Shown here piece by piece: positions 42,732-59,394 of a DNA stretch of 64,000 bases (position 1 is the first letter of the stretch; every line of letters starts with the position of its first letter). The position numbers were made by a program, and so were the translations under genes. Origin of the DNA: Candidatus Chlorohelix allophototropha (GTDB taxonomy: Bacteria; Chloroflexota; Chloroflexia; Chloroheliales; Chloroheliaceae); the NCBI RefSeq assembly GCF_030389965.1, contig NZ_CP128399.1:992001-1056000 (forward strand), read 5' to 3'. The notes below the pieces were generated by a model. It searched no databases. It worked only from the letters and a program-made list of their open reading frames with translations, and had not been told where the DNA came from.

Positions 42732-43874
42732 CTAATTATAGAGAATTTCCCCATTCACCAGCGTCATTAGAGTCTCAAAATTGTCGGGCTTGAAAACTGC
42801 TATATCTGCATCATAGCCTGCTTCAAGCCGTCCTTTACGCTTATCAATACCAAGTAAACGCGCCGGATTCAGGGAAGCCATTCCCACCGCTTCGGCGACA
42901 CTACAATCGGTATAGACAATCATATTGGCAATCGCTTGGTTTAAAGTCAAGATACTACCGGCAAGAGTTCCGGCAAAATTAGCCAGCCTTGCCGTTTTGT
43001 CGGTCACTATTACTTCCTGTCCACCCAGCACGTATTTACCCGGAGGCATGCCCATGCCAGCCATCGCATCTGTCACCAGTAGAATATTTGCTGCGCCCTT
43101 CAAGCGATATACCAGCCTTACTATACCGGGATGGAGGTGTATTCCATCTACTATTATTCCGCAAAAAGTATCTTTGGCTGCCAGAGAAACCCCCACGATA
43201 CCCGGTTTGCGATGGTGTAAGGAGGGCATGGCATTGAACAGGTGAGTAACCAGTCTGATGCCAGATTCAAAAGCCACTAGACCTTCTTCATAAGTTGCAG
43301 CGGTATGCCCCGCCGACACTATTATCCCTTTTTCATGCAACCAGTTTGCAACTTCCAACGCCCCCACCAATTCCGGCGCAAGGGTCATCAATTTCAAGCA
43401 GTCACCAGCGCATTCCCATAAACGGTGCGTTTCTTCCAGTGAAGGGTGACGTAAGAAAGTTTCTTCGTGCGCCCCTTTGTAGCGTGGATTTAGGAAGGGT
43501 CCCTCAATATGTGCGCCGAGTGGGATTGCTCCTTTTGTAGTTGCCGCATTTGCTTTAAGCCATCCCAAAGCCTCAAAATAGGTTTCAATTGGGGCAGTAA
43601 TATAGGTAGGTAGAAAGGCAGTAACACCCCAACGTGGTAAGGCTTTAGCCACTTCTCCCACGCTATTCGGCTGCTGGGTAAAATCAAAACCAAGCCCACC
43701 GTTTATTTGCATATCAATCAAGCCGGGGCATACATAGCTATCGGGAAAAGAATAATCGGCTTTTAAACCCTCGCCATACTCACAGCCCTGAATTTTACCG
43801 TCGGAGATTGTGAGCCTGCCGGCGCGAAAGCCCTCTTCTGTCCAAAGTTGACCGCTGATTGAAAATTCCTGCAT
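42732..43874 (-). CDS. nagA: N-acetylglucosamine-6-phosphate deacetylase
   Basis: A 380-residue amidohydrolase. Visible are GLIDMQINGGLGFDFTQ, the metal site Glu in LGAHIEGPFLNPRYKGAHEE, VSAGHTAATYEEG, THLFNAMPSLHHRKPG, VDGIHLHPGIVRL and the catalytic Asp in VTDAMAGMGMPPG. Splits acetate from GlcNAc-6-P to give GlcN-6-P. Its ATG overlaps the stop of the upstream hexosaminidase gene (TAATG). It is the last gene of the four-gene salvage operon; no nagB is in the window. Confidence 0.95.
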   Translation of the reverse strand: MQEFSISGQLWTEEGFRAGRLTISDGKIQGCEYGEGLKADYSFPDSYVCPGLIDMQINGGLGFDFTQQPNSVGEVAKALPRWGVTAFLPTYITAPIETYFEALGWLKANAATTKGAIPLGAHIEGPFLNPRYKGAHEETFLRHPSLEETHRLWECAGDCLKLMTLAPELVGALEVANWLHEKGIIVSAGHTAATYEEGLVAFESGIRLVTHLFNAMPSLHHRKPGIVGVSLAAKDTFCGIIVDGIHLHPGIVRLVYRLKGAANILLVTDAMAGMGMPPGKYVLGGQEVIVTDKTARLANFAGTLAGSILTLNQAIANMIVYTDCSVAEAVGMASLNPARLLGIDKRKGRLEAGYDADIAVFKPDNFETLMTLVNGEILYN

Positions 43875-45433
43875 TATACTTCCTCTAGCCGTACCGGCAA
43901 CTTACCAACAGGGGTTAACTTACCAAGCAAAACCTCTGCCAATGCCCTGATCGAGCATGGAGGATCGCCAAAAGTGGCAAGACATGCTGCCGCATCTTTG
44001 GTGAGATTCAACTCGTAGGGGTCTCTAGCTGCTACCACCACCGTATGGGGCTGAATTTTGATCAACTCCTTCAATGCCCAAGCCTGTGACTCATTCCTTG
44101 CCGCATTGCGGGCAAGTATAGTCAGATTGTCGGCTGTACTTGCCAAGTGGCAAGCAAGCGCAATCTGCTCAGTAGAAGGTTGAGCAGGTAGCTTTAAATA
44201 TCGCAAGTTCTCCCAGTGGTCGGAAAGCAATGTGCGGAGCAAGAGGGTAGCCTGCCTACCTTCTTCAACCGGAGAAGCGGATGGTAGCGTAAATTCTATA
44301 ACCGCAGGATTTTCAACATGCACGCCAAAGCGGAAACCCGACCGAACCGAAACCAACGTTAGGCTCTCTCGCGCCACCTCAAGGATTGTTTGAGCATCCA
44401 ACGCTTCCTGATATAGGTCGTCTAGCGAATAAGCTCTCTGCTCAGGCTTACAAAAACGCTCTTTGAAAGACAATACCCGTTGCAAGCCTTCCTCAAGTTC
44501 AAAAGCATTTTCAGAAGCAGCGCTCACCATTTGGCGAATAGTGTCGCGTTGGATTTCCATAGTAAAACACGGCAAAGCAACATCTGCGCCTGCTCGCAAA
44601 GTTGCAAGGGCTGATTCGGCAGGGGTGTAGCGTTCGGCAATCGCTTTCATATCAAGCGCATCGGTGAAAACCAACCCACCGAATCCAAGCACTTCGCGTA
44701 AAAGTTCGGTCAGAAATTTCCGGCTTAAGGTAACCGGAACAGCCTGTTCCAAAGCCGGAAACATAACATGGGCAGTCATCAGCGCCGGAACGTTAGCAGC
44801 GAAGGCACGCCGGAAAGGGATAAGCTCTACCGCGTCCAAGCGTTCGCGGGTGTGCGAAATAACCGGCAAGCCAAAATGACTATCCACGCCGGTATCACCA
44901 TGCCCCGGAAAATGTTTTACGCAACTGCCAATCTCGGCAGCGTTATACACTTCTATTGCGGCTGCCACCATCTCCGCCACAATAGCAGAGTCGCTACCGT
45001 AACTGCGGCTACCTATTACAGGGTTGTGGGGATTATTATTTATATCTGCTACAGGTGCAAAATTGAGGTTGATGCCCATACGTTGCAAGCGTCTCGCCGT
45101 TACTCCGGCGGCAGCGCGTACTGCATCAATTCCAGCGGAGGCTTGTGCCATTTGGCTTGGCGCAATCCACGGTGAACCATCCGCGCTCATACGGCTAACT
45201 CTACCGCCCTCCTCATCAATCGCGATAATAAAAGGAGGCAACCCGTTTTGGACGGCTAAATCTTGCAAATTTGTTGTAAGCGCAGCTACCTGCTCGATGC
45301 TTTTTATATTGCGACCGAATAAAATAACTCCACCGGGGCGACACTCCAGCAACCAATCCCGCAAAGTAGGATTCAATTCAATTCCATCGAATGCTACCAC
45401 AAAACGTTGACCGACTTTTTCAAGCAAGTTCAT
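43874..45433 (-). CDS. nagZ: Beta-N-acetylhexosaminidase, GH3 (NagZ-like)
   Basis: A 519-residue GH3 enzyme. The TIM barrel has FIIAIDEEGGRVSRM, VKHFPGHGDTGVDSHFGLPV (the His-Asp dyad region that serves as acid/base in NagZ) and VFTDALDMKAIAERY with the nucleophile Asp. It is longer than E. coli NagZ (about 340) by a C-terminal alpha/beta domain, as in Bacillus-type NagZ. No signal peptide, so it likely releases GlcNAc from anhydro- or plain muropeptides in the cytoplasm. Four bases after the kinase gene. Confidence 0.93.
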   Translation of the reverse strand: MNLLEKVGQRFVVAFDGIELNPTLRDWLLECRPGGVILFGRNIKSIEQVAALTTNLQDLAVQNGLPPFIIAIDEEGGRVSRMSADGSPWIAPSQMAQASAGIDAVRAAAGVTARRLQRMGINLNFAPVADINNNPHNPVIGSRSYGSDSAIVAEMVAAAIEVYNAAEIGSCVKHFPGHGDTGVDSHFGLPVISHTRERLDAVELIPFRRAFAANVPALMTAHVMFPALEQAVPVTLSRKFLTELLREVLGFGGLVFTDALDMKAIAERYTPAESALATLRAGADVALPCFTMEIQRDTIRQMVSAASENAFELEEGLQRVLSFKERFCKPEQRAYSLDDLYQEALDAQTILEVARESLTLVSVRSGFRFGVHVENPAVIEFTLPSASPVEEGRQATLLLRTLLSDHWENLRYLKLPAQPSTEQIALACHLASTADNLTILARNAARNESQAWALKELIKIQPHTVVVAARDPYELNLTKDAAACLATFGDPPCSIRALAEVLLGKLTPVGKLPVRLEEV

Positions 45434-45437
45434 ACGT

Positions 45438-46364
45438 TCACTCCACTTCTTGTGCCAACGCTACTGCTGCTGCTAACGCCGGTTCAGGCACTTGCACGAT
45501 TTTATCCAGTTGAATTTGCGTCCTTAGTAGCGCTTCAACTCTGGCAAGCAGTACCGGGTGATTTAAAATTACCCCACCCGCTACTGCCAGTGAAGGCGAC
45601 CCAGAAAATTCTAGTTTGCGATAAACCGCTTTTACAATTAAAGCTAGTTCTTCCGCCGCTTCTTCGATTAATGCCACCGCGGTTCTATCGCCTGCTGTGG
45701 CAGCTTGAAACACCAGACCCGACAAGCGGGCGATGCGGGCATTATCTACACTGGGGTTGGTATAAACTGCCCCGATTAACTGAGAGGCGCTTGCCAAGTT
45801 CCATTCTCGCAAAACTAAATCCAGCAGCAAGGTTTCAGGTTCACGCCCATCTTCCATACGCGCTGCTTTTTGTAGAACCGCGCGCCCGAACCATAAGCCG
45901 CTGCCCTCATCCCCGAAGAAATGTCCCCAACCACCGGCGCGAGTACGATTTCCAGTATGGTCACGCCCGATTGCAATTGAACCGGTGCCGCAAATCAGGC
46001 ACAACCCGATTGAATGCGGTAGCGCCGCCAGCACCAGTTCCCCATCATTTCCAAACAACATCTCGCGCGCTTGCGGAGAATCAAGCTCGGCAGTTTTTTG
46101 CTTCCAGATTTCTTGGTCATCAGCGCGATCAAGACCGGACAAACCCAAATAGATTTTATCCAGTACAACGGTAGCAGGTGACAGGTTTGCAACTGAGCAT
46201 GCCTCCAGCAAAGCCTTTTTAACCGCCGTTACCGCTTTCTCTAGTCCAAGTGCCTGATAATTCGAGCCTGCTGAAACGCCCCGCCCAAGTTCTTGCCCGC
46301 TCTCATCTACTATTACCACCAGAGTTTTACTGGCTCCGCCATCTACCGCCGCAAAATAGCGCAT
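45438..46364 (-). CDS. BadF/BadG-type amino-sugar kinase (GlcNAc/MurNAc kinase)
   Basis: A 308-residue ASKHA-fold kinase. The phosphate-1 loop YFAAVDGGASKTLVVIVDES, the adenosine part LCLICGTGSIAIGRD and the GGWGHFFGDEGSGLW motif are those of eukaryotic-type GlcNAc kinase and of clostridial MurK. Between murQ and nagZ it most likely makes MurNAc-6-P for MurQ and GlcNAc-6-P for NagA, which would explain why only one kinase is needed. Gaps to neighbours are three and four bases. Confidence 0.88.
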   Translation of the reverse strand: MRYFAAVDGGASKTLVVIVDESGQELGRGVSAGSNYQALGLEKAVTAVKKALLEACSVANLSPATVVLDKIYLGLSGLDRADDQEIWKQKTAELDSPQAREMLFGNDGELVLAALPHSIGLCLICGTGSIAIGRDHTGNRTRAGGWGHFFGDEGSGLWFGRAVLQKAARMEDGREPETLLLDLVLREWNLASASQLIGAVYTNPSVDNARIARLSGLVFQAATAGDRTAVALIEEAAEELALIVKAVYRKLEFSGSPSLAVAGGVILNHPVLLARVEALLRTQIQLDKIVQVPEPALAAAVALAQEVE

Positions 46365-46367
46365 CGC

Positions 46368-47297
46368 TTAGTCTGCCTCTTTTAATGCCAATCGCACCAC
46401 ACCACTGGTTCTGGCAAGTCTTTCGGCTGCCTGATTCGGGCTAACCCCTGCCAACGCCGCTACAATTGCTACTTTTGTTTCTCCATTACAACGCTCCAGC
46501 AAAGTGGTAGCTTCTACTTCTGGTAACCCGGTGCAATCAATTACTATCCGCACCGCCCTGCGCCGGAGTTTGGCATTGCTGACACGTACATCTACCATCA
46601 AATTGCCGTAGGTTTTGCCCATTAATGTCATAGCCGCAGTTGACAGCATATTCAGCACCATTTTCTGGGCTGTTCCGGCTTTAAGACGGGTTGAACCGGA
46701 AACTACTTCGGGACCCGTAACAGGCGCAATATTGATTTGTGCTAACGCTTCCAAAGGGGTGGATTTATTGCAGGCTAGCCCGATAGTGAATGCGCCACAA
46801 CTACGGGCGTATTCTAGCGCACCCAAAACGTAGGGGGTACGCCCACTGGCAGTAATTCCCACCACCGCATCGTTCGCGTTTAGCTGAACCTTAATCAAAT
46901 CCTGTTTACCCAGCTCGGCATTGTCTTCGGCTTCTTCCACCGCACTGGTTAGGGCAATCTCTCCACCAGCGATAATGCCGATAACCATTGATGGCGGAGT
47001 ATTAAAAGTAGGTGGGCACTCGGACGCATCCAACACGCCAAGTCTACCGCTAGTTCCCGCTCCGATATAAATCAGCCTACCACCCTTTTTGAAACGTTCT
47101 ACAATTTCTTCTACCGCACGGGCAATTGAGGGTATTCCCAACTTAATAGCCTGAGCCACCAAGGCGTCTTGATTATTAATTATTTGCACTATTTCAAGTG
47201 CGCTCAAGGTGTCGAGATTAGAGCTTTCCTGATTGCGCCCTTCTGTTGCTAGATTATCGCTATCACGTGCGGATTCTTCTATGTATTTACCTTGCAT
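46368..47297 (-). CDS. murQ: N-acetylmuramic acid 6-phosphate etherase
   Basis: A 309-residue SIS-domain protein: YIGAGTSGRLGVLDASECPP binds the sugar phosphate, EDNAELGKQDL carries the catalytic Glu of MurQ, then GITASGRTPYVLGAL and GSTRLKAGTAQKMVLNMLST. Cleaves the D-lactyl ether of MurNAc-6-P to give GlcNAc-6-P, the NagA substrate. First gene of the operon murQ, kinase, nagZ, nagA, with a promoter-like pair upstream at 47345-47373. Confidence 0.96.
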   Translation of the reverse strand: MQGKYIEESARDSDNLATEGRNQESSNLDTLSALEIVQIINNQDALVAQAIKLGIPSIARAVEEIVERFKKGGRLIYIGAGTSGRLGVLDASECPPTFNTPPSMVIGIIAGGEIALTSAVEEAEDNAELGKQDLIKVQLNANDAVVGITASGRTPYVLGALEYARSCGAFTIGLACNKSTPLEALAQINIAPVTGPEVVSGSTRLKAGTAQKMVLNMLSTAAMTLMGKTYGNLMVDVRVSNAKLRRRAVRIVIDCTGLPEVEATTLLERCNGETKVAIVAALAGVSPNQAAERLARTSGVVRLALKEAD

Positions 47298-47431: not shown

Positions 47432-48637
47432 TTACATGCCGTATCGCTTGAGAACGCGCTTCGCAAATTCAGGCACAAGTTTGTCTTCGTGTTCCGAGAA
47501 ATTCTTGCGAATATGATCAAGGTTGCGCGCCCACTTCATAGTGAGAGTACCGCGGGCAAAATTGATGCCCTTCAAACCGCGATGCCTTACCACGAAGGTA
47601 AGAAGTTTTGCGCCCCATTTCGGCAATTTGCGGGGTGGCTTATTTAGCATATCTACCGAAAGTTGGACGGCACGATGGTAATCGCCCTTTTCAACCAACG
47701 GCGTAAATTCCAAGTGCGGACGCAGCATTTCGAATAGCTCTTCGCCAACCTTAGTACGAACAGTGATCCATTGGAAGGGCATCGTTGCGCCCAAATAACC
47801 TATCGTTATATCCGAAAGAGCATTGGCGTAGTCAAAGCAACTCAGGCAACTATCCGGGAAAATATCCGCACCCATCTTGTCCAAGTCCAGTTCGAAGAAG
47901 CCGATTTTCTCGATATGTCCATCCTCATGCTTCATCCAGACGCGATAATCCGGCATAAACTCAAGGTGAACTACCGTAGTAGGTGACTCCGATACCACAT
48001 CAAGGAACTTGTTCCACTTCTGATAAGTCACTACATCGGTACAGGGCAAGCCCAGAAAGTAGATTTTGTCAAAGGGCAGAGTCTCTTGAATAGAACGCAC
48101 AGCATGCGTTTGGCAACCGTTACCGATAAAGGCAATTCGTTTAAGCCCTCGCTTTTCGGCTTCTTCGATAGCGGAAACGTTTTGGGATAGGCAGGGCTTG
48201 TTCCCTTTTGCCGCAATTATTTCTTCAACGGTGGTAGCAACTCTAGGCTGGGGTTTAAAGCGAGTGCCGGGTACATTATCTACCACGATTACGCCGTCCA
48301 CCATATTATTTTTCAGCAGCATACTTGCCACTGTACTCATAATGCCGGTCCACTGTGCGCCTTCTATCGGCTGTTTCAAGCGGGCAGCGTACATGTGCTG
48401 GAAAATGCCAAACATATCCTCATCAGAACCGGGTTGTCGCCCCCGACCATGTACTCGCTGCTCAATTTCTTCGTAGCGATTCCCTACAAAGACACAAGCA
48501 TCCACCAATTGTTCGCGGCGGTTTGAATAGCAAAGACCACAGCGACTGCACATCAATGGTTTGTCAAGGCGGTTTGAAGTAGATTCGCCCTTGCGGGAGA
48601 CCTGAATTAATGGATTCTGCTCGTAAGTCTGGCTCAT
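47432..48637 (-). CDS. bciB: 3,8-divinyl (proto)chlorophyllide 8-vinyl reductase, BciB type
   Basis: A 401-residue iron-sulfur flavoprotein of the FrhB family. The match to BciB and plant HCAR is close along its length: PLMCSRCGLCYSNRREQLVD, RVHGRGRQPGSDEDMFGI, GAQWTGIMSTVASMLLKNNM, LKRIAFIGNGCQTHAVRS, VVHLEFMPDYRVWMKHEDGH and SCLSCFDYANALSDITIGYL. The four Cys groups (CSRCGLC, GNGC, SCLSC) would hold two [4Fe-4S] clusters beside FAD. BciB reduces the 8-vinyl group with reduced ferredoxin during (bacterio)chlorophyll synthesis. Generic FrhB-like reductases are the alternative, but they lack the HGRGR and GAQWTG blocks. Stands alone with its own terminator. Confidence 0.82.
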   Translation of the reverse strand: MSQTYEQNPLIQVSRKGESTSNRLDKPLMCSRCGLCYSNRREQLVDACVFVGNRYEEIEQRVHGRGRQPGSDEDMFGIFQHMYAARLKQPIEGAQWTGIMSTVASMLLKNNMVDGVIVVDNVPGTRFKPQPRVATTVEEIIAAKGNKPCLSQNVSAIEEAEKRGLKRIAFIGNGCQTHAVRSIQETLPFDKIYFLGLPCTDVVTYQKWNKFLDVVSESPTTVVHLEFMPDYRVWMKHEDGHIEKIGFFELDLDKMGADIFPDSCLSCFDYANALSDITIGYLGATMPFQWITVRTKVGEELFEMLRPHLEFTPLVEKGDYHRAVQLSVDMLNKPPRKLPKWGAKLLTFVVRHRGLKGINFARGTLTMKWARNLDHIRKNFSEHEDKLVPEFAKRVLKRYGM

Positions 48638-48903: not shown

Positions 48904-49386
48904 CTACCAATTTGTCCCCTCTAAGGGCATTACATGCAAACGTCGCGCATATTCCTGTACCGCGCGCTCCTGCTCCTTGATTTCAATCGAACCAGGACGA
49001 ATCCGCCTTATCTCCGCGATTGCTTGAGAGGCGCTCATACCGCGATGTACCAAATAGCAAGCCAGTATAGTACCGGTTCTGCCATAACCGGCGCGACAAT
49101 GAATCAGCACAGGCTCTAGACGCTGTATTCGTTTCTCAATAAAGTGGACGAGCTTTTCAATCTGTTCAACTGTAGGCGCGCTAAAATCGGGAAGTGGCAA
49201 ATGCTTGTGCATTATCTGGTATTTTTGAAGTAAATCGGGGCGTGGGCTTTTTTGGGACAAAGAAACGATGGCACGAATACCCTGTTGATGCAAAAATAGG
49301 AGGTCTTCATCCTCTTTACCGCTTCCACCCGGAAGAGCGCTACCCGCCAGTTTCCCTTCGATTACCCAACCCCAATTTTCCAGCAT
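48904..49386 (-). CDS. Dual-specificity protein phosphatase
   Basis: A 160-residue Cys-based phosphatase. The P-loop is [20 protein letters not shown] (HC-x5-R-T-G) and the general-acid Asp is in [18 protein letters not shown]. The start [18 protein letters not shown] is that of the DUSP23/YvcJ-like small group, which act on phosphotyrosine, phosphoserine or small phosphate esters. Monocistronic. Confidence 0.88.
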
Positions 49387-49548: not shown

Positions 49549-50574
49549 ATGGCAGGCTATAATCTTGCAATCGTAGGAGCAACCGAGTTAACCGGACAGG
49601 AATTGATAAAAATCCTCCAAACCCGGCGGTTTCCTATAAACAACATAAAGTTTCTGACAAATCCAGCCCAATATGTGCCAGGTCGCCGCATCTTTTTCGC
49701 AGGTAAAGACTTTGAGGTGCAGGAAATTACCTCCCGCGCTTTTAGAGAGGTAGATATAGCTTTTTTCTGTGGAGATGCCGAAACCGCTCAGCATTTTGCG
49801 CCCAATATAAGCGATTTCGGTTGTTTTGTAATTGACGTGAGTGGCGCATTTCGGGGTGATGATAAAGTTCTTTCGGTAATTCCTGAAATCAATGGGGAAG
49901 AACTTCAGCAACTAAAAAAGAAACGGCTGGTAGCATCACCCAGTCCCGCCGTTATCCAGCTTTTACTACCATTGAACACCTTGCGACAATGGACTAGCTT
50001 GCGTCGTCTGATAGTACACAGCTTTGAGCCTGTTTCGGAGAGTGGACAAAGTGCAGTTGAGTTTCTAACTACCGAGGCACGCACCGTACTGGATGGGAAG
50101 AATGTCATCCCGCACACCTACCACCACCAAATAGCCTTTAACCTATTGCCTGAAACCGAGAATTTTCTGGATACAGGCTTAACCCGTAGCGAAGCGCGCA
50201 TAATCCGCGAAATAAAACGTTTTTGGCGTTTGCCCGACCTCAACATTTCGGTAACGGCAATCCGTGTACCACTTTATCAAGGGATGTCGCAATCGGTAAT
50301 AGTCGATTTAGGGAAAAAAGTTACTCCCGATGAAATGCGCGAAGTGATGGGGGATACGCCCGGCGTAAAGGTATCAGACGATCCAAGTGTAAATATGTAC
50401 CCGCAGCCGTGGCAAAGTATCAATACCGATGAAATAGTGGTTGGGCGTATCCGGGAACTGGATAGCACTTACAACACTATGGCTTTCTGGAGTTGTATGG
50501 ACAATCTCCGAAAAGGCTCGGCTCTAAACGCTATCCAGATAGCGGAGACTGCTTCGCACCTTAAGTTGATATAG
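49549..50574 (+). CDS. Aspartate-semialdehyde dehydrogenase homologue without catalytic Cys and His
   Basis: A 341-residue ASADH-fold protein. The Rossmann start NLAIVGATELTGQELIKIL, FEPVSESGQSAVEFL, the E-x-x-x-x-x-x-E-x-x-R helix TRSEARIIREIKRFW and AIRVPLYQGMSQSV align with Asd. The usual N-C-S/T active-site block is instead SPSPAVIQ, with Pro133 in the Cys place, and the G-H-S near residue 246 reads G-M-S, so the catalytic His is also gone. The gene is otherwise full length and unbroken. It probably cannot make aspartate semialdehyde; like USG-1 proteins it may have a structural or regulatory role. A true asd should exist elsewhere. Confidence 0.85.
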   Translation: MAGYNLAIVGATELTGQELIKILQTRRFPINNIKFLTNPAQYVPGRRIFFAGKDFEVQEITSRAFREVDIAFFCGDAETAQHFAPNISDFGCFVIDVSGAFRGDDKVLSVIPEINGEELQQLKKKRLVASPSPAVIQLLLPLNTLRQWTSLRRLIVHSFEPVSESGQSAVEFLTTEARTVLDGKNVIPHTYHHQIAFNLLPETENFLDTGLTRSEARIIREIKRFWRLPDLNISVTAIRVPLYQGMSQSVIVDLGKKVTPDEMREVMGDTPGVKVSDDPSVNMYPQPWQSINTDEIVVGRIRELDSTYNTMAFWSCMDNLRKGSALNAIQIAETASHLKLI

Positions 50575-50663: not shown

Positions 50664-53318
50664 TTACATGCGCGTGCCTTCTATCCTGATACCGAATTGA
50701 ACCAGTAATAAGGGTGAAGGAGCGGTAAAACGCAAGGAGATTTGCCCGGTACTTGGATTAGTAAAGCGCATCGGGTTATCGATTTCATTGGGCAATACCG
50801 GAAGAGCAGAGTTCGGGGTTGTGCCTGAACCGCTGCTAGCGGGTGCGCTATTTTTCAGCCCATTCAGCACTACCCAATCATTTTGCTGCCAATCGAATAA
50901 TTCTACTTTATCCGGTAAAAAGGGGGTGCGACTGGAATTCGCAGTGAAAGAATTCAGAATCAAAACCATCCGGGTTGTTTTGAAATTCAAATTATCAACC
51001 GGTAACCGATAGTTATTCACCACCGTACCGCGTGAGAGACAAATCTGATCGGAATGTTCAATCTTACTGGTGGGGATAGGAGCACCCTGATCATTATAAG
51101 AATTTTCAGGATACATATAGCTGGAAGGTATCAGGATTTTGCCTTGTTCAAGCGGGTTTTCCACCGAAACTGGCAGCCGTGATAGTAATACTTGATTCGA
51201 GCGCGGTAAAGTAGTCACGCCTGCTACATTTAGCGGAACAGGGTTATTATCTACCCAACCGATAAAATCAAAACCTCTGACAGGGTTTGTAAGGCTATAC
51301 CTTCCGATCTCATATATTTTACGCAAGAAGGCTGCCCTGTTCTGGTAAAGCTTATCATTCTGGTGATCAGCTTGTAGTAGGTTTTGCATCTTTTCGCCAA
51401 TGGAAGTGTTATTGTATCCAGTAAAGTTTCCAAACCCCTGTGTGCAAAATGAGGTCACTAACTGATTTTCAGGCGGTAAAGGGAAATCCACCTCAAGAGT
51501 TTCGCCGGGTTCAATATCTTTTACTTTTTGAAGCTGATCGCCCATCGCCAGCATAATTCCTCTTATTGGCTGACCAATAGTATTTGTTACCGCGCCTTTA
51601 ATATGGATTTCGCCATTTTGCTCGACAAAATACAGATTACTTTGTAATTGATATTGACGAGCAGGTACAAGTGCCTCCACACTCACTCCTTGCGCACTCC
51701 ACTGACGCACATTGAGTTGCTCAACCCGGGGCTGATCACCGCTTACCACGTAACGAACATTGTCCTGATCACTTATGGGAAAAGCAATATTACGGTTTAG
51801 CGGTAAAAGCAGAGGGGGCGCAGCGCTATCTGGAAGTACCGGATCAACTTCATACAGATTGTCGTTAGGCGAAAAAAGAGCAGCGTAACTGCGAACCTGA
51901 GCATTTGTCTGTCCGGGTGAAACCTGTATCACACTCATTTCACTAATTAATACATCACCTGATGGCTGGTTAAGGCTAAGCCACACCGCAATACTAAAAA
52001 ATACTATGCCGGTTATTGGCAAAGTTAGCCAAGCCCACACAAGTTTTTTCAGTCGAACTAACACAAGGTAGTTGAGCGGACAAACTACCAATAAATAAAT
52101 ACCAAAAAGTATAAAGAAAGAAGTTATATTAGGAAGCGGCACTTCGGGTATATTGCCTACATACCCAAAGAAATCGGAGTTATTTTTGAGATGGGGATTA
52201 GTATCATCATAAATCTGGTAGTAGATGCCACTGTTAAAACTAAAAATATCCTGCCAAGCTTTGGAACTTCCAGCCCAATCTGCCAACGGGTTGGTTGTTA
52301 AATCCATAGCAGTAGCTACAATCCTGCCCATTCCCCTAATACGCGCTGCTACTAAAGGAATCACACTTGACCCTGAATTAGAATTGGTAAGCGTAAAAGT
52401 GGTTAAGGGCTTTGCGCCTTGCAATACCTGACCTACCGCAATTGTCACAGGCTGGGATAGCGGGAGTTTATCATTTTCTTCTGCCAAAAGTGCGTTAAGA
52501 TTATCTACTTTCTGGTAATCATACACATCTATAGGCAATAATTTCGGATCAAAGCCGCTACTGACTTTATTCCAGCCATTCCCGCCCATCAAAATTAGCT
52601 GACCACCGGAGTTTACCCAATCCATTAAGGCATTTTGTTGGTCTGCGCTCAAACCACTGCTATTAGTATCACTCAAAACCAAGGCATTAAAAGAACGCCA
52701 GCCATCTGCCCGATCAGGGAAATCTGCCGGGTTAAGGTTAATTATATCGACCCTAGAATTCAATTTTCCCACTCTCATGTTATTCATATAGCTTACCAAA
52801 CTAGGGTCACTATTAATAACACCAACCAAATAATCCTTAGGGCTAATCGGTAGAAGGCGTACATTCTGCGCGAAAAGTGTGCGTTCCCCATCGGCAGTTT
52901 TTAGCTGGATTGGCTGTTCATAACTGACAAAGCGGGAAACGTTGCTATTAGCTACATAGGGCTGGAAATAAATGTGGAATTTCTTGACCGAACGCTCTCC
53001 TAAAGTAATCGGTCGTCTGAAAATAGTGGGGAAATTTGTGCTATTTACGGTATTGGTAACTACCGTTTCAATTTGAACTGAGGTAGCTGCCCCAAAATTT
53101 TCTAGAGTAATCTCAATCGGAAGCCAATCCCCGTATTTGTAAGCTCCATCAAACATTGAACGAGCTGTCATTTTCACATTATATTCGAATTGCTGGTTAG
53201 GTTGTGCTAGACTTTTATCCCCCTGAGCGGCAGTTACGATTCCCACGCCGCCGAAAACGAAAACGAAAACTATACCGAATAACCAAACGGCACGGCTGAA
53301 AAAGTAGAGATGGCGCAT
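50664..53318 (-). CDS. Large membrane-anchored protein, paralogue 2 (unknown function)
   Basis: An 884-residue protein with a signal/anchor (AVWLFGIVFVFVFGGVGIV), a beta-rich exterior region (about 40-180), and a flavodoxin/GATase-like part with FNALVLSDTNSSGLSADQQN and WVNSGGQLILMGGNGW. Near 395-450 come two membrane segments (FFILFGIYLLVVCPLNYLVL and a second), then another long beta domain to the end. Same architecture as the gene 26 bases upstream. Such proteins recur in Chloroflexota and some other phyla, and I know no assigned function. Confidence 0.7.
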   Translation of the reverse strand: MRHLYFFSRAVWLFGIVFVFVFGGVGIVTAAQGDKSLAQPNQQFEYNVKMTARSMFDGAYKYGDWLPIEITLENFGAATSVQIETVVTNTVNSTNFPTIFRRPITLGERSVKKFHIYFQPYVANSNVSRFVSYEQPIQLKTADGERTLFAQNVRLLPISPKDYLVGVINSDPSLVSYMNNMRVGKLNSRVDIINLNPADFPDRADGWRSFNALVLSDTNSSGLSADQQNALMDWVNSGGQLILMGGNGWNKVSSGFDPKLLPIDVYDYQKVDNLNALLAEENDKLPLSQPVTIAVGQVLQGAKPLTTFTLTNSNSGSSVIPLVAARIRGMGRIVATAMDLTTNPLADWAGSSKAWQDIFSFNSGIYYQIYDDTNPHLKNNSDFFGYVGNIPEVPLPNITSFFILFGIYLLVVCPLNYLVLVRLKKLVWAWLTLPITGIVFFSIAVWLSLNQPSGDVLISEMSVIQVSPGQTNAQVRSYAALFSPNDNLYEVDPVLPDSAAPPLLLPLNRNIAFPISDQDNVRYVVSGDQPRVEQLNVRQWSAQGVSVEALVPARQYQLQSNLYFVEQNGEIHIKGAVTNTIGQPIRGIMLAMGDQLQKVKDIEPGETLEVDFPLPPENQLVTSFCTQGFGNFTGYNNTSIGEKMQNLLQADHQNDKLYQNRAAFLRKIYEIGRYSLTNPVRGFDFIGWVDNNPVPLNVAGVTTLPRSNQVLLSRLPVSVENPLEQGKILIPSSYMYPENSYNDQGAPIPTSKIEHSDQICLSRGTVVNNYRLPVDNLNFKTTRMVLILNSFTANSSRTPFLPDKVELFDWQQNDWVVLNGLKNSAPASSGSGTTPNSALPVLPNEIDNPMRFTNPSTGQISLRFTAPSPLLLVQFGIRIEGTRM

Positions 53319-53344
53319 ATTACTACCTTTATTGCAAATCTTTA

Positions 53345-56032
53345 TTAGGTGAAGTTTTGACCTTCAACCCCTATATTTAACTGTTGTAAAATTATAATTT
53401 CCTGATTGGAAGCAAGGCGAAGACGTATTGTGCCTAAGTTGCGGTCAATATAATCGTTTAAATCTGGCATGGTCAAATCAATCCGGTTACGGTTATCTCC
53501 AACCTGACTAACTTCCACCCATGAATTTTTCGCCCAATTAAATAGCTCAATTCGAGGGTTATACTGGTAGGTTGTGACAGGTTGCGGATCACGCCAACCA
53601 GAAATAGATTGGCTATTACCAAAAATTGAACTGCGCTCACGTTCTCTAAAAGAGTTAATATAAATCGATAAAGTGGTTGGTAGGTATCTGGGAAAGGTTA
53701 ACCCACTTGGTAATTGATACTGAAAAGTTGAAGGGCTTTGCCCAATAATCGCTACATTGTTATTAGACCCGGTAGTATCGGTTAATCTCTCAGGAATCAG
53801 AGTGTACGATGGAATAATAAGCTTATTGTTTGCTTCCCCATATGAAAGTGGTAAAGGGCGAATTATCAAGGCGCTATCCTGCTGAGCAACTTTCATGCCG
53901 AGTATTTGGGCTGAGCCAAGTATCGGGCTACTATCCAGCCATCCGGTTAAATATAATTGAGTTGCGCGCTCGTCTGGAATAAAACGACCAGATTGATAGG
54001 CAACATTTAAAATATTCCAGTGAAGCGAGCCTAAACGCGCATCATGGCTGTTGCCCGAAAACCAGGGGTTTTGTGAACCAGCCAAACGCACAGAAGATTC
54101 AGGGTTAGTTTGCAGGTAAGAAAGCGGCACATAAATATTTGAGTCTATAGCCGGGCGTGGTGTTAAGGTGGGACGACGAGTAATAGTAAAGCTAATTTTT
54201 CTCTCATCATTTGGGTTTATCTCTCCCAAATTTAGGTAATTATCTCCATACATCAGTACCGCTTCTGAAAGGTGATAGTTCCCTTTATTTACCAGTGTCC
54301 CGTTAATATTTCCGTTATCAATAGTAAATTTACCTTCAAGACCAAGCCTTAAATCAGTTATGCCCTCTCCCGCAAAACTTTGCAAACGACTATTTGAGTC
54401 GGCATTCTTTATTGAAGCATTTGTTGAGCCTTCTACCAATACTTGAGGAGGCAGGAAATTAACTTGGGAAGAAATGGAAAGAGGCTGCGGTCTGAGCAAA
54501 GACTGCGTCCCTTCCAATTCGAGCTGATATGGAGAATCGGAGGAAGAAGAAACCAGCATATAGCTTTTTACAGCGGCAGGTAATTCATCGCTGGTACTTT
54601 CAATCAAACTCACCCTGCTTAAATGTACATCTCCGGCAGGTGTAAATACTGCAAAAATTGCAGTAATGATGGTGAATACTACCACAAAGCACGGCGCTAC
54701 AAGCCAAAACAACTCAAGACGGCTAAATCTACGAAGGATAAGATAGCTAAACGGTACGACCAATGCCACATATAGCAGCATAATACCCAACAAACTATAT
54801 TCGTCTGGAAGGCTGGGTCCGGGTGCATTTAGCAATGCCCGTCCGATTCCATCCTGACTAAAGAAATTTTGAGTGGCACGGTTCAATGTGAAATTGGGGT
54901 CTGCCGCCAGAATTAAATTTGCCCAGACAAAATTTACCCGATTCCAATTGCTGAGGGGTTGCACTAATAAATCAGCTGCACCCATAGTAATTGAGCCTTG
55001 ACCAAAAGGTCTGGATACAACTAAAGGCAAATCGGCTTCGGGTAATCCGACATCCTGCCGACTTGCGATGAACGCATTGGGATTGGGAATAAAACGGCTA
55101 ATTTCAAGATTAAGTGTTCCGGGTACTTCCAACGCTTGATCAGCAAGGTTGGACTTAAAAGAGAGATGATTTACTACCAGCGTAGAATTTGTCATGGCAG
55201 GCAGCAAATTAGTATCCAAACCTACAGAGGCAATCAGCGAAGGAAGGTTAGAACCCCCGAATAGAATAAGTTGACCACCATTGGCAACCCAAGCTTGCAA
55301 AGCCCGCCTTTTTTCAGCTGTAAATGTATCCGGCTTTATATTTGAAATGACTAGAGCGTTAAGTGGATCAAATTGTTCTTTCCTATCACTCATCTCTACA
55401 GATTGCAAACCTAGCCCTCTTATACCCACCGAGTTACCACGTATCGGGGTAAAACCAATACGTGGAATATCAGGTGGCGTGGGTGAGTCATTTAAAATAC
55501 CTACTATAAAATCTGAAGCAGAAATCTGTTGCAAGCGATGCTGATTCTGAGCTATCAGCTTACCCTGAGAATCATAAAGCCCAACGGTTATATTATTATT
55601 ACGAGTGGTTGGTTGGATATAGTGAAAATATATTTGGCTTTGGTTGGGCGTCAAACTTACCGGAGTAACAAAGCTGAAATCACTGCTTACCGCATTGACG
55701 AGTAGACTAAAATTCGAGCGAATTTCACCTTGAAAAGGATTATTCCCATTGGTAATTTCAATAACTATAGTAGCCCAACCATTCTCACGGTATAAGCCAT
55801 CCACCAGAGGATGTGATTTAAAAGAAGTTATTGGAGATTTATCGTTAGCGGCAGGAGTTTGGGCGAGTACAGTTCGAGGTAAAAACAAACCGATAATTAA
55901 GGAAAGTATCAAAATAAACGCACACACATAAAAAAATAGAACTACTTTTCGTACTCTAATGCTTTGAAAGTATAAGGATTTTAGCCCTGCTCCTATTACG
56001 TTTACGGGCTGCGGTAAACTCGGTAACTGCAT
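53345..56032 (-). CDS. Large membrane-anchored protein, paralogue 1 (unknown function)
   Basis: An 895-residue protein with a hydrophobic segment near 25-55 (VCAFILILSLIIGLFLPR), a beta-rich exterior region, the same LNALVISNIKPDTFTAEKRR and WVANGGQLILFGGSNL block, membrane segments near 410-475 (LLGIMLLYVALVVPFSYLIL and a second) and a long beta-rich C-terminal half. It is similar in plan but not close in sequence to the next gene; an old tandem duplication. Promoter at 56080-56108. The G-G-Q-L-I-L-x-G-G block suggests a class I glutamine-amidotransferase-like fold without the catalytic Cys. Confidence 0.7.
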   Translation of the reverse strand: MQLPSLPQPVNVIGAGLKSLYFQSIRVRKVVLFFYVCAFILILSLIIGLFLPRTVLAQTPAANDKSPITSFKSHPLVDGLYRENGWATIVIEITNGNNPFQGEIRSNFSLLVNAVSSDFSFVTPVSLTPNQSQIYFHYIQPTTRNNNITVGLYDSQGKLIAQNQHRLQQISASDFIVGILNDSPTPPDIPRIGFTPIRGNSVGIRGLGLQSVEMSDRKEQFDPLNALVISNIKPDTFTAEKRRALQAWVANGGQLILFGGSNLPSLIASVGLDTNLLPAMTNSTLVVNHLSFKSNLADQALEVPGTLNLEISRFIPNPNAFIASRQDVGLPEADLPLVVSRPFGQGSITMGAADLLVQPLSNWNRVNFVWANLILAADPNFTLNRATQNFFSQDGIGRALLNAPGPSLPDEYSLLGIMLLYVALVVPFSYLILRRFSRLELFWLVAPCFVVVFTIITAIFAVFTPAGDVHLSRVSLIESTSDELPAAVKSYMLVSSSSDSPYQLELEGTQSLLRPQPLSISSQVNFLPPQVLVEGSTNASIKNADSNSRLQSFAGEGITDLRLGLEGKFTIDNGNINGTLVNKGNYHLSEAVLMYGDNYLNLGEINPNDERKISFTITRRPTLTPRPAIDSNIYVPLSYLQTNPESSVRLAGSQNPWFSGNSHDARLGSLHWNILNVAYQSGRFIPDERATQLYLTGWLDSSPILGSAQILGMKVAQQDSALIIRPLPLSYGEANNKLIIPSYTLIPERLTDTTGSNNNVAIIGQSPSTFQYQLPSGLTFPRYLPTTLSIYINSFRERERSSIFGNSQSISGWRDPQPVTTYQYNPRIELFNWAKNSWVEVSQVGDNRNRIDLTMPDLNDYIDRNLGTIRLRLASNQEIIILQQLNIGVEGQNFT

Positions 56033-56931: not shown

Positions 56932-58088
56932 TCAATTTAAGAGCTGCGGAAGCAAAATAGGAGGACTATTAAGCAGCTGAAAACTGGAGGGTTTGGATTT
57001 TTTCCTATCCAAACGACAGCCTTTTTGCATACTAGCACAAATATAAATCAATTCTTGCAATAAGTGGGGCGGATTATCAATACGAAACAGTAAGCTGCGG
57101 GCGTGTGCTCGCACAATACGACTAGCCTTGATGAGACTGCGTTCCGCCTCTTGCCACACCCCTGCCAGCACTAACCAGTGCTGAATAATTTGCCCAATCA
57201 GTTTGGCATATATTTCGCATAATATCGCCCAAGGCTTGTGGCTATGCCAGCGTTCCAATCCACCCCCACTTTTCCACAATTTGAAAAGAAGTTCAATCTG
57301 CCAGCGTAACCGATACAATACTGCCACTTCTGCGGGACTAGCCTGCTCCTGCGATAGATTGGTTAGATACACACTCCAGTAGCTTAAGGCTTGACGTTCG
57401 GCGCTGACCGGACGCTGCTGCTTGCGTGCCAACTCCTTGAAAGCCTGCTGACGAGTTTGTACTACTCCAGAAGGTACTTGCCATGCCACTAACCGACAGC
57501 GCAAACGTTCTTTTACCCCCACCTCTACTACCCTATCTATCAGCTTTTGTGACTGCTGTCCCAACCATTTACTCAAAGCTAAGGGTTGTTGGTGCGCCCC
57601 GTACACTTGTAGTCCGGTTTGAGCTTTGGTTAGGTACAATACCGCTTGCGCTTCTAATTCTTTCAATCGTCCCAATTTGAAATAGCCTAAATCGGTTATC
57701 CGTAGCGCCCCCGCTGGTAAACTTAGCTTTTGATGCGGTCCTTGCCGATCGTGCAGACGGGCTGGACTTAATTCCGGTCCCAGTAGCGCCCCGCTTAGCA
57801 GTTCCAAACCCACGTGCAGTTTCAGACCAGCCTCACTTTGACTACCCTCTTTCCCACACCCTTGCCAATGGGCGCTCAAGGTTGGCGGTAAACTGATAGT
57901 CGAACTATCCAGTACATACACCCCTTTGAAGCGTTGCAGTAGGCTCAAACTCGCTGGTTCCTGCCCTAGCATTTTTTCTACACACCAACCTAACAAAGCC
58001 TGTAAATAACTTGCCGCTTGGCTTGTAAAACTCTGGTCAAGCGCTTGTTTGCTAACCTTGGCTATTTGTGCCAGTTCACTCCGTATAA
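56932..58088 (-). pseudogene. IS4-family transposase truncated at its N-terminus
   Basis: The DDE core is present: VYVLDSSTISLPPTLSAHW (D1), ALRITDLGYFKLGRLKELE (D2) and VLYRLRWQIELLFKLWKSGG with Y-(2)-R-(3)-E-(6)-K. The N-terminus is cut by the IS3 element at 58088; only RSELAQIAKVSKQALDQSF of the first domain remains, and the present start lies in foreign sequence. Different from the IS4 element at 5008-6428. Non-functional or doubtful. Confidence 0.8.
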
Positions 58089-59394
58089 TGAACCAGAAGA
58101 ACTGAACAACTAAAAAGGGTTTGGTAAGGTGTATACTTAAAAACATGACAACACCTAGAAAAAAGTATTCACCCACATTTAAGTCTCAAAGAGTGCAAGA
58201 AGTGCTGGAAGGTAATAAAACCCTTACCCAGATAGCTTCTGAATATGGTATTCATCCGAATATGCTCACTAAATGGAAACAACTGGCTCTAAAAGGTCTG
58301 CCACAATCCTTTGATGAGCGTACTCAGAAGCAAATCGCGCTGCTGACCGCACAGTACGAACAAGAAAAAGAACAACTTTACGCCGAAATAGGTCGCCTGA
58401 CTACACCGCTCAGGTGGTTAGGAAAAAAAGTGAAGCAGGCTTTGCCCAGGTCGGTCAGATTAAGCCTAATCGAAACCCAAAAAGCTGAACTTTCACTCTC
58501 AAAACAAAGTGAGTTGCTAGGAATTAGCCGTTCCAGTTTGTACTACCGCTCAGTAGCACCAACCGAACGAGAAATTGAGCTCAAACACCGAATTGATGAG
58601 ATTTACACCGTTTACCCTTTTTATGGATATCGGCGAATTCATCAACAATTACTGCGGGAAGGCAAGCACCTCAACCGCAAAACGGTGCAAAACTATATGC
58701 GGGAGATGGGGCTAGAAGCAATCTATCCTGGTCCTAATCTTTCGAAACGAGATCAAAAGCAGCGGGTATATCCCTATCTCTTAAGGAACCTGGCTATAAC
58801 CAGACCCGCTCAGGTATTCGGTACCGACATCACATATATCAAGCTCAAACACGGTTGGCTTTATCTGGTGGCTGTCATCGACTGGTACAGCAGATATGTG
58901 GTAAGTTGGGAATTATCTGATACTTTGGAAATCGATTTTGTGCTTAGAACTACCGAGCGAGCGTTGGCGAAGATAAAACCGGAGATCTTTAACAGTGACC
59001 AAGGTAGTCATTTTACCAGTCCTAAATACACTGCTTTGATATTGGGCGCAGGTGTAAAGTTAAGTATGGATGGACGTGGGCGAGCACTAGATAATGTTTT
59101 CACCGAAAGGCTCTGGCGTTCCTTAAAATATGAGTGTGTTTATTTAGCACAATTTGAGAACCCCAAAGAAGCAAAGCTAGGGATTGGTGAGTATTTCGAT
59201 TTCTACAATAATACTCGACCTCATCAGGCTTTGAAATATCAGACACCGGCTCAGGTTTATTTCAATACCGTGACACCAGTAATTATGTTAAAGAGCTAAA
59301 AAGAGTTACTAGCTATTTAACATTATTAGTTCTATAGAAAGGACTGTATCACTCCTTAACCAAGCTTTTATTTTTGTCTTGACAAACTGGGTCA
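58089..59394 (+). mobile_element. IS3-family insertion sequence, structurally complete
   Basis: Ends TGAACCAG (58089) and CTGGGTCA (59394) are inverted, and similarity goes on inward for about 48 bases (AAAA, TTGGT-AAGG and GTATAC or GATAC blocks). TG..CA tips and 1,306 bp fit IS3. No target duplication, and the truncated IS4 does not resume on the right, so a deletion followed insertion. Confidence 0.75.
58145..59299 (+). CDS. IS3-family transposase, OrfA and OrfB in one frame
   Basis: One 384-residue frame: OrfA helix-turn-helix YSPTFKSQRVQEVLEGNKTL and GIHPNMLTKWKQ, leucine-zipper part, then OrfB with SKQSELLGISRSSLYYRSV, the DDE residues in QVFGTDITYIKLKHGW, IFNSDQGSHFTSPKY and NVFTERLWRSLKYE, and NNTRPHQALKYQTP. 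ATG 58145 is preferred over TTG 58121. Members normally need a -1 shift at an A6-7G run to join OrfA and OrfB; such a run (A7G, 58423-58430) is here, but the zero frame is already open through it, so full transposase needs no shift. Confidence 0.88.
   Translation: MTTPRKKYSPTFKSQRVQEVLEGNKTLTQIASEYGIHPNMLTKWKQLALKGLPQSFDERTQKQIALLTAQYEQEKEQLYAEIGRLTTPLRWLGKKVKQALPRSVRLSLIETQKAELSLSKQSELLGISRSSLYYRSVAPTEREIELKHRIDEIYTVYPFYGYRRIHQQLLREGKHLNRKTVQNYMREMGLEAIYPGPNLSKRDQKQRVYPYLLRNLAITRPAQVFGTDITYIKLKHGWLYLVAVIDWYSRYVVSWELSDTLEIDFVLRTTERALAKIKPEIFNSDQGSHFTSPKYTALILGAGVKLSMDGRGRALDNVFTERLWRSLKYECVYLAQFENPKEAKLGIGEYFDFYNNTRPHQALKYQTPAQVYFNTVTPVIMLKS

Follow-up and report, generated by a model that had tools for sequence, protein, structure and literature searches.

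We find that a 341-residue protein of Candidatus Chlorohelix allophototropha, encoded in the 64,000-nucleotide stretch of DNA that we analysed as a whole (the window), belongs to the asd_B family of aspartate-semialdehyde dehydrogenases (Asd) and is very probably no longer an Asd itself but a conserved pseudoenzyme, held under selection. Our alignments demonstrate, at the level of the encoded residues, that the loss of the nucleophile, the acid/base residue, the substrate-site Gln and Glu and the cofactor motifs is joint and is fixed in the whole Chlorohelix family (Table 1).

Table 1. Features of the Asd-like gene and of its divergent neighbour, with positions counted from the first letter of the window.
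Feature	Position	Strand	Basis
Dual-specificity phosphatase-like protein, divergently transcribed neighbour	48904..49386	-	Comparison with the family genomes
Putative asd_B-type aspartate-semialdehyde dehydrogenase pseudoenzyme, 341 aa	49549..50574	+	Full-length domain matches, AlphaFold model
Glu13 replacing the middle Gly of the GATGxxG nucleotide-binding motif	49585..49587	+	Gly in 138/138 intact genes
Residues 37-46, replacing the NADP-binding A-S-x-R-S-A-G loop	49657..49686	+	Alignment
Arg102, phosphate-binding Arg of the SxxFR motif, retained	49852..49854	+	Comparison with 138 intact genes
Ser132-Pro133 replacing Asn-Cys (Cys being the catalytic nucleophile)	49942..49947	+	Alignment; Asn and Cys in 138 intact genes
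Glu160 replacing the invariant active-site Gln	50026..50028	+	Comparison with 138 intact genes
Ser214 and Arg217 replacing the invariant substrate-site Glu and Lys	50188..50199	+	Comparison with 138 intact genes
Arg239 of RVP, substrate carboxylate-binding Arg, retained	50263..50265	+	Comparison with 138 intact genes
Met246 replacing the catalytic His	50284..50286	+	Alignment; His in 138 intact genes

The first-pass annotation described a full-length gene with an Asd-like fold, and both parts of that description hold. The frame opens with ATG and runs uninterrupted through 341 codons to its stop, and the product matches the Pfam families Semialdhyde_dh and Semialdhyde_dhC, the NAD-binding and dimerisation domains (E = 7e-24 and 8e-29). 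The NCBIfam asd_B models span the entire protein, which passes NF011456 (296 bits, cut-off 223) and misses the cut-off of TIGR01296 (295 against 324 bits); among solved Asd structures the best match has an E-value of 5e-56 and the others are weaker. An AlphaFold model built from a 75-sequence alignment, used in place of a 6-sequence alignment that gave a pLDDT of 56.5, has a mean pLDDT of 95.4 and a pTM of 0.93, and superposes on solved Asd structures with TM-scores of 0.94–0.95 and an rmsd of ~1.6 Å, so that the model retains the complete Asd fold. By homology and fold over its full length the protein thus belongs with the asd_B enzymes. Because it passes the NF011456 equivalog model, automatic annotation would call it an Asd, and it would be counted as one in metabolic reconstructions of this cultured Chloroflexota phototroph with a type I reaction centre.

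As reference we used 138 asd_B genes with Asn-Cys and His in place, taken from 301 Chloroflexota genomes. Positions 13, 102, 160, 164, 214, 217, 221 and 239 are identical in all 138 (G, R, Q, G, E, K, E and R), and since Asn, Cys, His and these other active-site positions are uniform in the intact genes, the changes in the Chlorohelix protein are not alignment noise. In H. influenzae Asd numbering, the active-site residues R103, C136, Q163, E243, K246, R270 and H277 comprise the nucleophile, the acid/base residue and those that bind substrate and phosphate. The segment S130-P-S-P-A aligns on the SPNC(S/T) motif of the solved structures, and the alignment bears out the initial observation that Pro stands in place of the SPNC Cys and Met in place of the His of RVPxxxxHS. 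That observation understated the loss, as Q160→E, G164→E, E214→S, K217→R, the Glu at position 13 and the replaced RSAG loop have to be added to it, R102, R239, E221 and D96 being kept. Among the substrate-site residues of asd_B enzymes (Gln, Glu, Lys and two Arg) only R102 and R239 remain; of the NADP motifs, GATGxxG reads GATE and RSAG is gone. Each of the four full-length family sequences has Glu or Asp at residue 13, and the loop at residues 37–46 carries a two-residue insertion and varies in sequence within the family. To judge from these residues, the protein is without a nucleophile and an acid/base, and cofactor binding would be lost as well. A positively charged cluster of R102, R217 and R239 is left in the pocket.

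Orthologues with about 61–67% identity are present in four other family genomes (Ca. Chloroheliaceae L227-5C, Chloroflexi 54-19, RYN_336 and 'isolate 14'; G001–G004). The copy in 'isolate 14' (G004) is divided over contig ends, and every complete copy, across three genera, is open and full length. All four orthologues carry both S-P-S-P and G-M-S, the same replacements thus occurring in five of five family genomes, and Pro133 and Met246 are for this reason not sequencing errors. No further genome among the 158 of the class that we searched has this form. Homologues with a restored Cys, which the first-pass annotation named as evidence against its reading of a repurposed paralogue, are confined to outgroup enzymes at ~39–47% identity, with none inside the family. 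The catalytic residues are therefore missing from all orthologues while selection retains the protein, as the dN/dS of 0.053–0.070 among the three closest family members indicates (dS is unsaturated in these comparisons and saturated in all others). Of the claim that this is a repurposed paralogue and not random decay, the conserved paralogue under selection stands, and its repurposing is what we infer. In the same genomes the working Asd described below is 71–73% identical and the pseudoenzyme 62–67%, so that the pseudoenzyme evolves only slightly faster than the enzyme. Constraint is unevenly spread: 45 substrate-pocket positions are 87% invariant in the four complete family sequences, versus 49% over all positions, and are 74% invariant (sd 5, maximum 87) in 300 quartets of active enzymes chosen to match the family in identity, whereas the NADP-site loops are 43% invariant in the family versus 69% (sd 9) in the active-enzyme quartets. 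These values suggest a pocket that was rewritten and then held, and a cofactor site that was released; as we picked both lists of positions ourselves from knowledge of the family, the comparison is supporting and not decisive.

The Chlorohelix genome also encodes an intact Asd, as the first-pass annotation proposed to look for, albeit of the EA type (archaeal/fungal) and so from another branch of the superfamily. It has 359 residues, with TNPNCTT and the His intact, its gene adjoins one that reads from its sequence as threonine synthase-like, and it recurs in all four relatives (G001–G004) at 423–432 bits against a cut-off of 301. The 341-residue protein, only ~29% identical to it over part of the length, is no recent copy of this working enzyme and descends from the active asd_B enzymes still found in other Chloroflexota. 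Two further superfamily members in the genome are ArgC-like. Genes for LysX, an ArgC/LysY-like protein and LysW-aminoadipate kinase lie together at C1:143947-147354, in a phototrophic member of the Chloroflexota, and because the ArgC-like gene stands beside those for LysX and the kinase, lysine is probably made via the aminoadipate route. A search of the five Chlorohelix-family genomes found dapB above the cut-off in none.

Across the 301 Chloroflexota genomes, asd_B was found in 147 and the EA-type Asd in 126. At the threshold used, the EA type accompanies none of the 138 intact asd_B genes and five of the nine altered ones (Fisher p = 2e-7, a value inflated by shared ancestry). Of the four remaining altered cases, G232 has an intact EA-type Asd that falls below the threshold, G078 has a second, intact asd_B, and G062, at 73% completeness, belongs to the same genus as G074; G287, where asd_B is altered yet keeps its Cys, is an exception to the pattern, with no second Asd found in the genome. 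Outside this sample, G409 provides a counter-example, an intact asd_B together with an EA-type Asd (in a 420-contig assembly), and G387 has an altered asd_B fragment (Q160→C, R239→A) with an EA-type Asd. In a tree built without the catalytic columns the Chlorohelix family, on a long branch of 0.89 changes per column, groups with G071 (95/80) and then with G232 (90/91). The AU test rejects one common origin for all the altered asd_B genes (p = 0.0003); the best tree needs four active-site changes, at least two of them on well-supported branches. The genomes are not phylogenetically independent, and a test of altered site against second Asd finds only two well-supported independent pairs, too few for the association to be significant. 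Since a second Asd accompanies most altered genes, and the EA type none of the 138 intact ones at this threshold, we conclude that asd_B catalysis was lost where another Asd carries out the reaction, and that this probably happened several times. In G232, G112 and G274 the altered gene still has dapB on one side and dapA on the other, with pnp upstream; in G287 it follows pnp and dapB. Taken together, these genes form a natural series for the loss of catalysis with retention of the protein, from active asd_B over partly altered forms in a dap operon to the fully rewritten one.

The neighbours of the gene differ between genera, and no conserved operon emerged among the family genomes. The divergent arrangement with the phosphatase-like gene recurs in G002, and the phosphatase orthologue lies elsewhere in the other three family genomes, all of genus g2, which leaves a functional link unsupported; the neighbour is probably unconnected with the pseudoenzyme. 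In g2, asd_B comes after mutS2, a gene for a P-loop kinase, nth and one for a NUDIX protein, a pattern absent from the other two genera, and we claim no link there either. Apart from the Asd question, several features of the window deserve mention. Adjacent genes for a NagA-like deacetylase, a beta-N-acetylhexosaminidase-like protein, an N-acetylglucosamine kinase-like protein and a MurNAc-6-phosphate etherase make up a cell-wall sugar recycling cluster (42732-47297, minus strand). An F420-hydrogenase-beta-like protein (47432-48637, minus strand) presumably resembles the 8-vinyl reductase BciB, an enzyme of bacteriochlorophyll synthesis, as would fit a phototroph. Two neighbouring large proteins of 884 and 895 aa, alike in layout, have no Pfam or NCBIfam match (50664-56032, minus strand), and DDE_Tnp_1 and rve/IS3-like transposase genes lie on opposite strands with their 5' ends overlapping by 56 bases (56932-59299).

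The reading that we favour, though tentatively and at slightly less than even confidence, is that of a cofactor-free, ligand-binding pseudoenzyme or regulator, an NADP-free paralogue of asd_B. The catalytic centre and the cofactor site are lost, selection is strong and a working enzyme stands alongside, which makes sensing or scaffolding probable as opposed to catalysis. The aspartate pathway would run via the EA-type Asd; the asd_B gene, released from catalysis, would retain its dimer fold and the anion pocket of R102, R217 and R239; a small metabolite, either phosphorylated or a dicarboxylate, may bind in this pocket, and the protein could act by that binding as a sensor, inhibitor or regulatory subunit of another protein, with aspartate-family metabolism as the most plausible setting. 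The conserved pocket residues could also serve folding or dimerisation alone. A bolder proposal, which we regard as somewhat unlikely, is that Chloroflexota repeatedly turn asd_B into a cofactor-free sensor of an aspartate-family metabolite after takeover by an archaeal-type Asd, the Chlorohelix-family protein being the most rewritten and controlling flux via a ligand in its old active site.

Asd is a dimer with communicating sites, and the dead protein might instead heteromerise with the EA-type Asd, aspartokinase or homoserine dehydrogenase for stability or regulation, no ligand being needed. The altered genes that still sit in a pnp-dapB-asd-dapA cluster in other Chloroflexota fit such a pathway complex. 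However, the low and partial identity to the EA-type Asd gives no reason to expect a shared dimer interface, the protein persists in the Chlorohelix family although dapB was not found there above the cut-off, and if the role were structural alone, it would be hard to see why conservation peaks in the pocket; we consider this explanation unlikely. About as unlikely, to our minds, is a new enzyme whose rewritten pocket (E160, E164, S214, M246, C74 and H157, none of which varies within the family) would carry out another reaction, independent of NADP, on a phosphorylated acidic substrate. The pattern of change has the signature of a change of function and not of simple loss: at 18 positions where active enzymes are at least 90% conserved, the whole family shares a single other residue, and invariant C, H, E, K and W residues have newly appeared. 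Nevertheless, we recognise no catalytic constellation among them, the Pro and Met that occupy the two catalytic positions are chemically inert, and pathway genes are absent from the neighbourhood. That the protein still acts as an aspartate-semialdehyde dehydrogenase, with a different nucleophile, would agree with the complete fold and the NF011456 score, but with Cys, His, Asn, Gln, the substrate Glu and the NADP motifs all changed, and with the intact EA-type enzyme making it unnecessary, this is very improbable. A decaying pseudogene with its frameshifts yet to come, which the many lost sites and the long branch might suggest, is scarcely credible given open, full-length complete copies with identical replacements in three genera, a dN/dS near 0.06 and a pocket conserved above average.

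Our literature searches on Asd pseudoenzymes, on USG-1 with semialdehyde dehydrogenase and on Chloroflexota Asd returned nothing relevant. With the asd_B enzymes (TIGR01296, NF011456; structures 8juo, 2r00 and 2gz1/2gz3) the protein shares the fold, the dimerisation domain, R102, R239, E221 and D96, and it differs from them by the replacement of Cys, His, Asn, Gln, the Glu and Lys of the substrate site and the NADP motifs. The other altered Chloroflexota genes (G071, G232, G112, G078, G274, G287 and f15) belong to the same gene family, have lost or changed Asn-Cys and/or His and mostly occur with a second Asd, but each has different residues changed, several keep the NADP loop and some lie between dapB and dapA.

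The first-pass annotation likened the protein in spirit to USG-1. E. coli Usg (b2319), annotated only as a putative semialdehyde dehydrogenase, and its P. aeruginosa homologue 2hjs have the Asd fold, and in E. coli Usg the catalytic Cys is lost as well (Ser, in a VPDS motif, where the Chlorohelix protein has Pro). The accessible portion of a paper on the Salmonella usg operon gives no biochemical role for usg (PMC6358828). Beyond fold and Cys, the two proteins have kept opposite residues: Usg, at ~29% identity, keeps the His (GH) and GATGAVG and has lost both substrate Arg (R102→Ala, FA for FR; R239→Gln, QAP for RVP), whereas the Chlorohelix protein keeps both Arg and has lost the His and the cofactor motifs. 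The E. coli gene lies in a pdxB-usg-truA operon, and neither pdxB nor truA is near the Chlorohelix gene among the ORFs of the window. PRK08040 and PRK05671, models that we take to cover Usg-like proteins, score it at 185.5 and 215.6 bits, below their cut-offs of 273 and 284. The likeness is therefore a loose one, and the two are parallel cases and not members of the same family; asking which pocket residues survive in each could make the role of USG-1 more testable.
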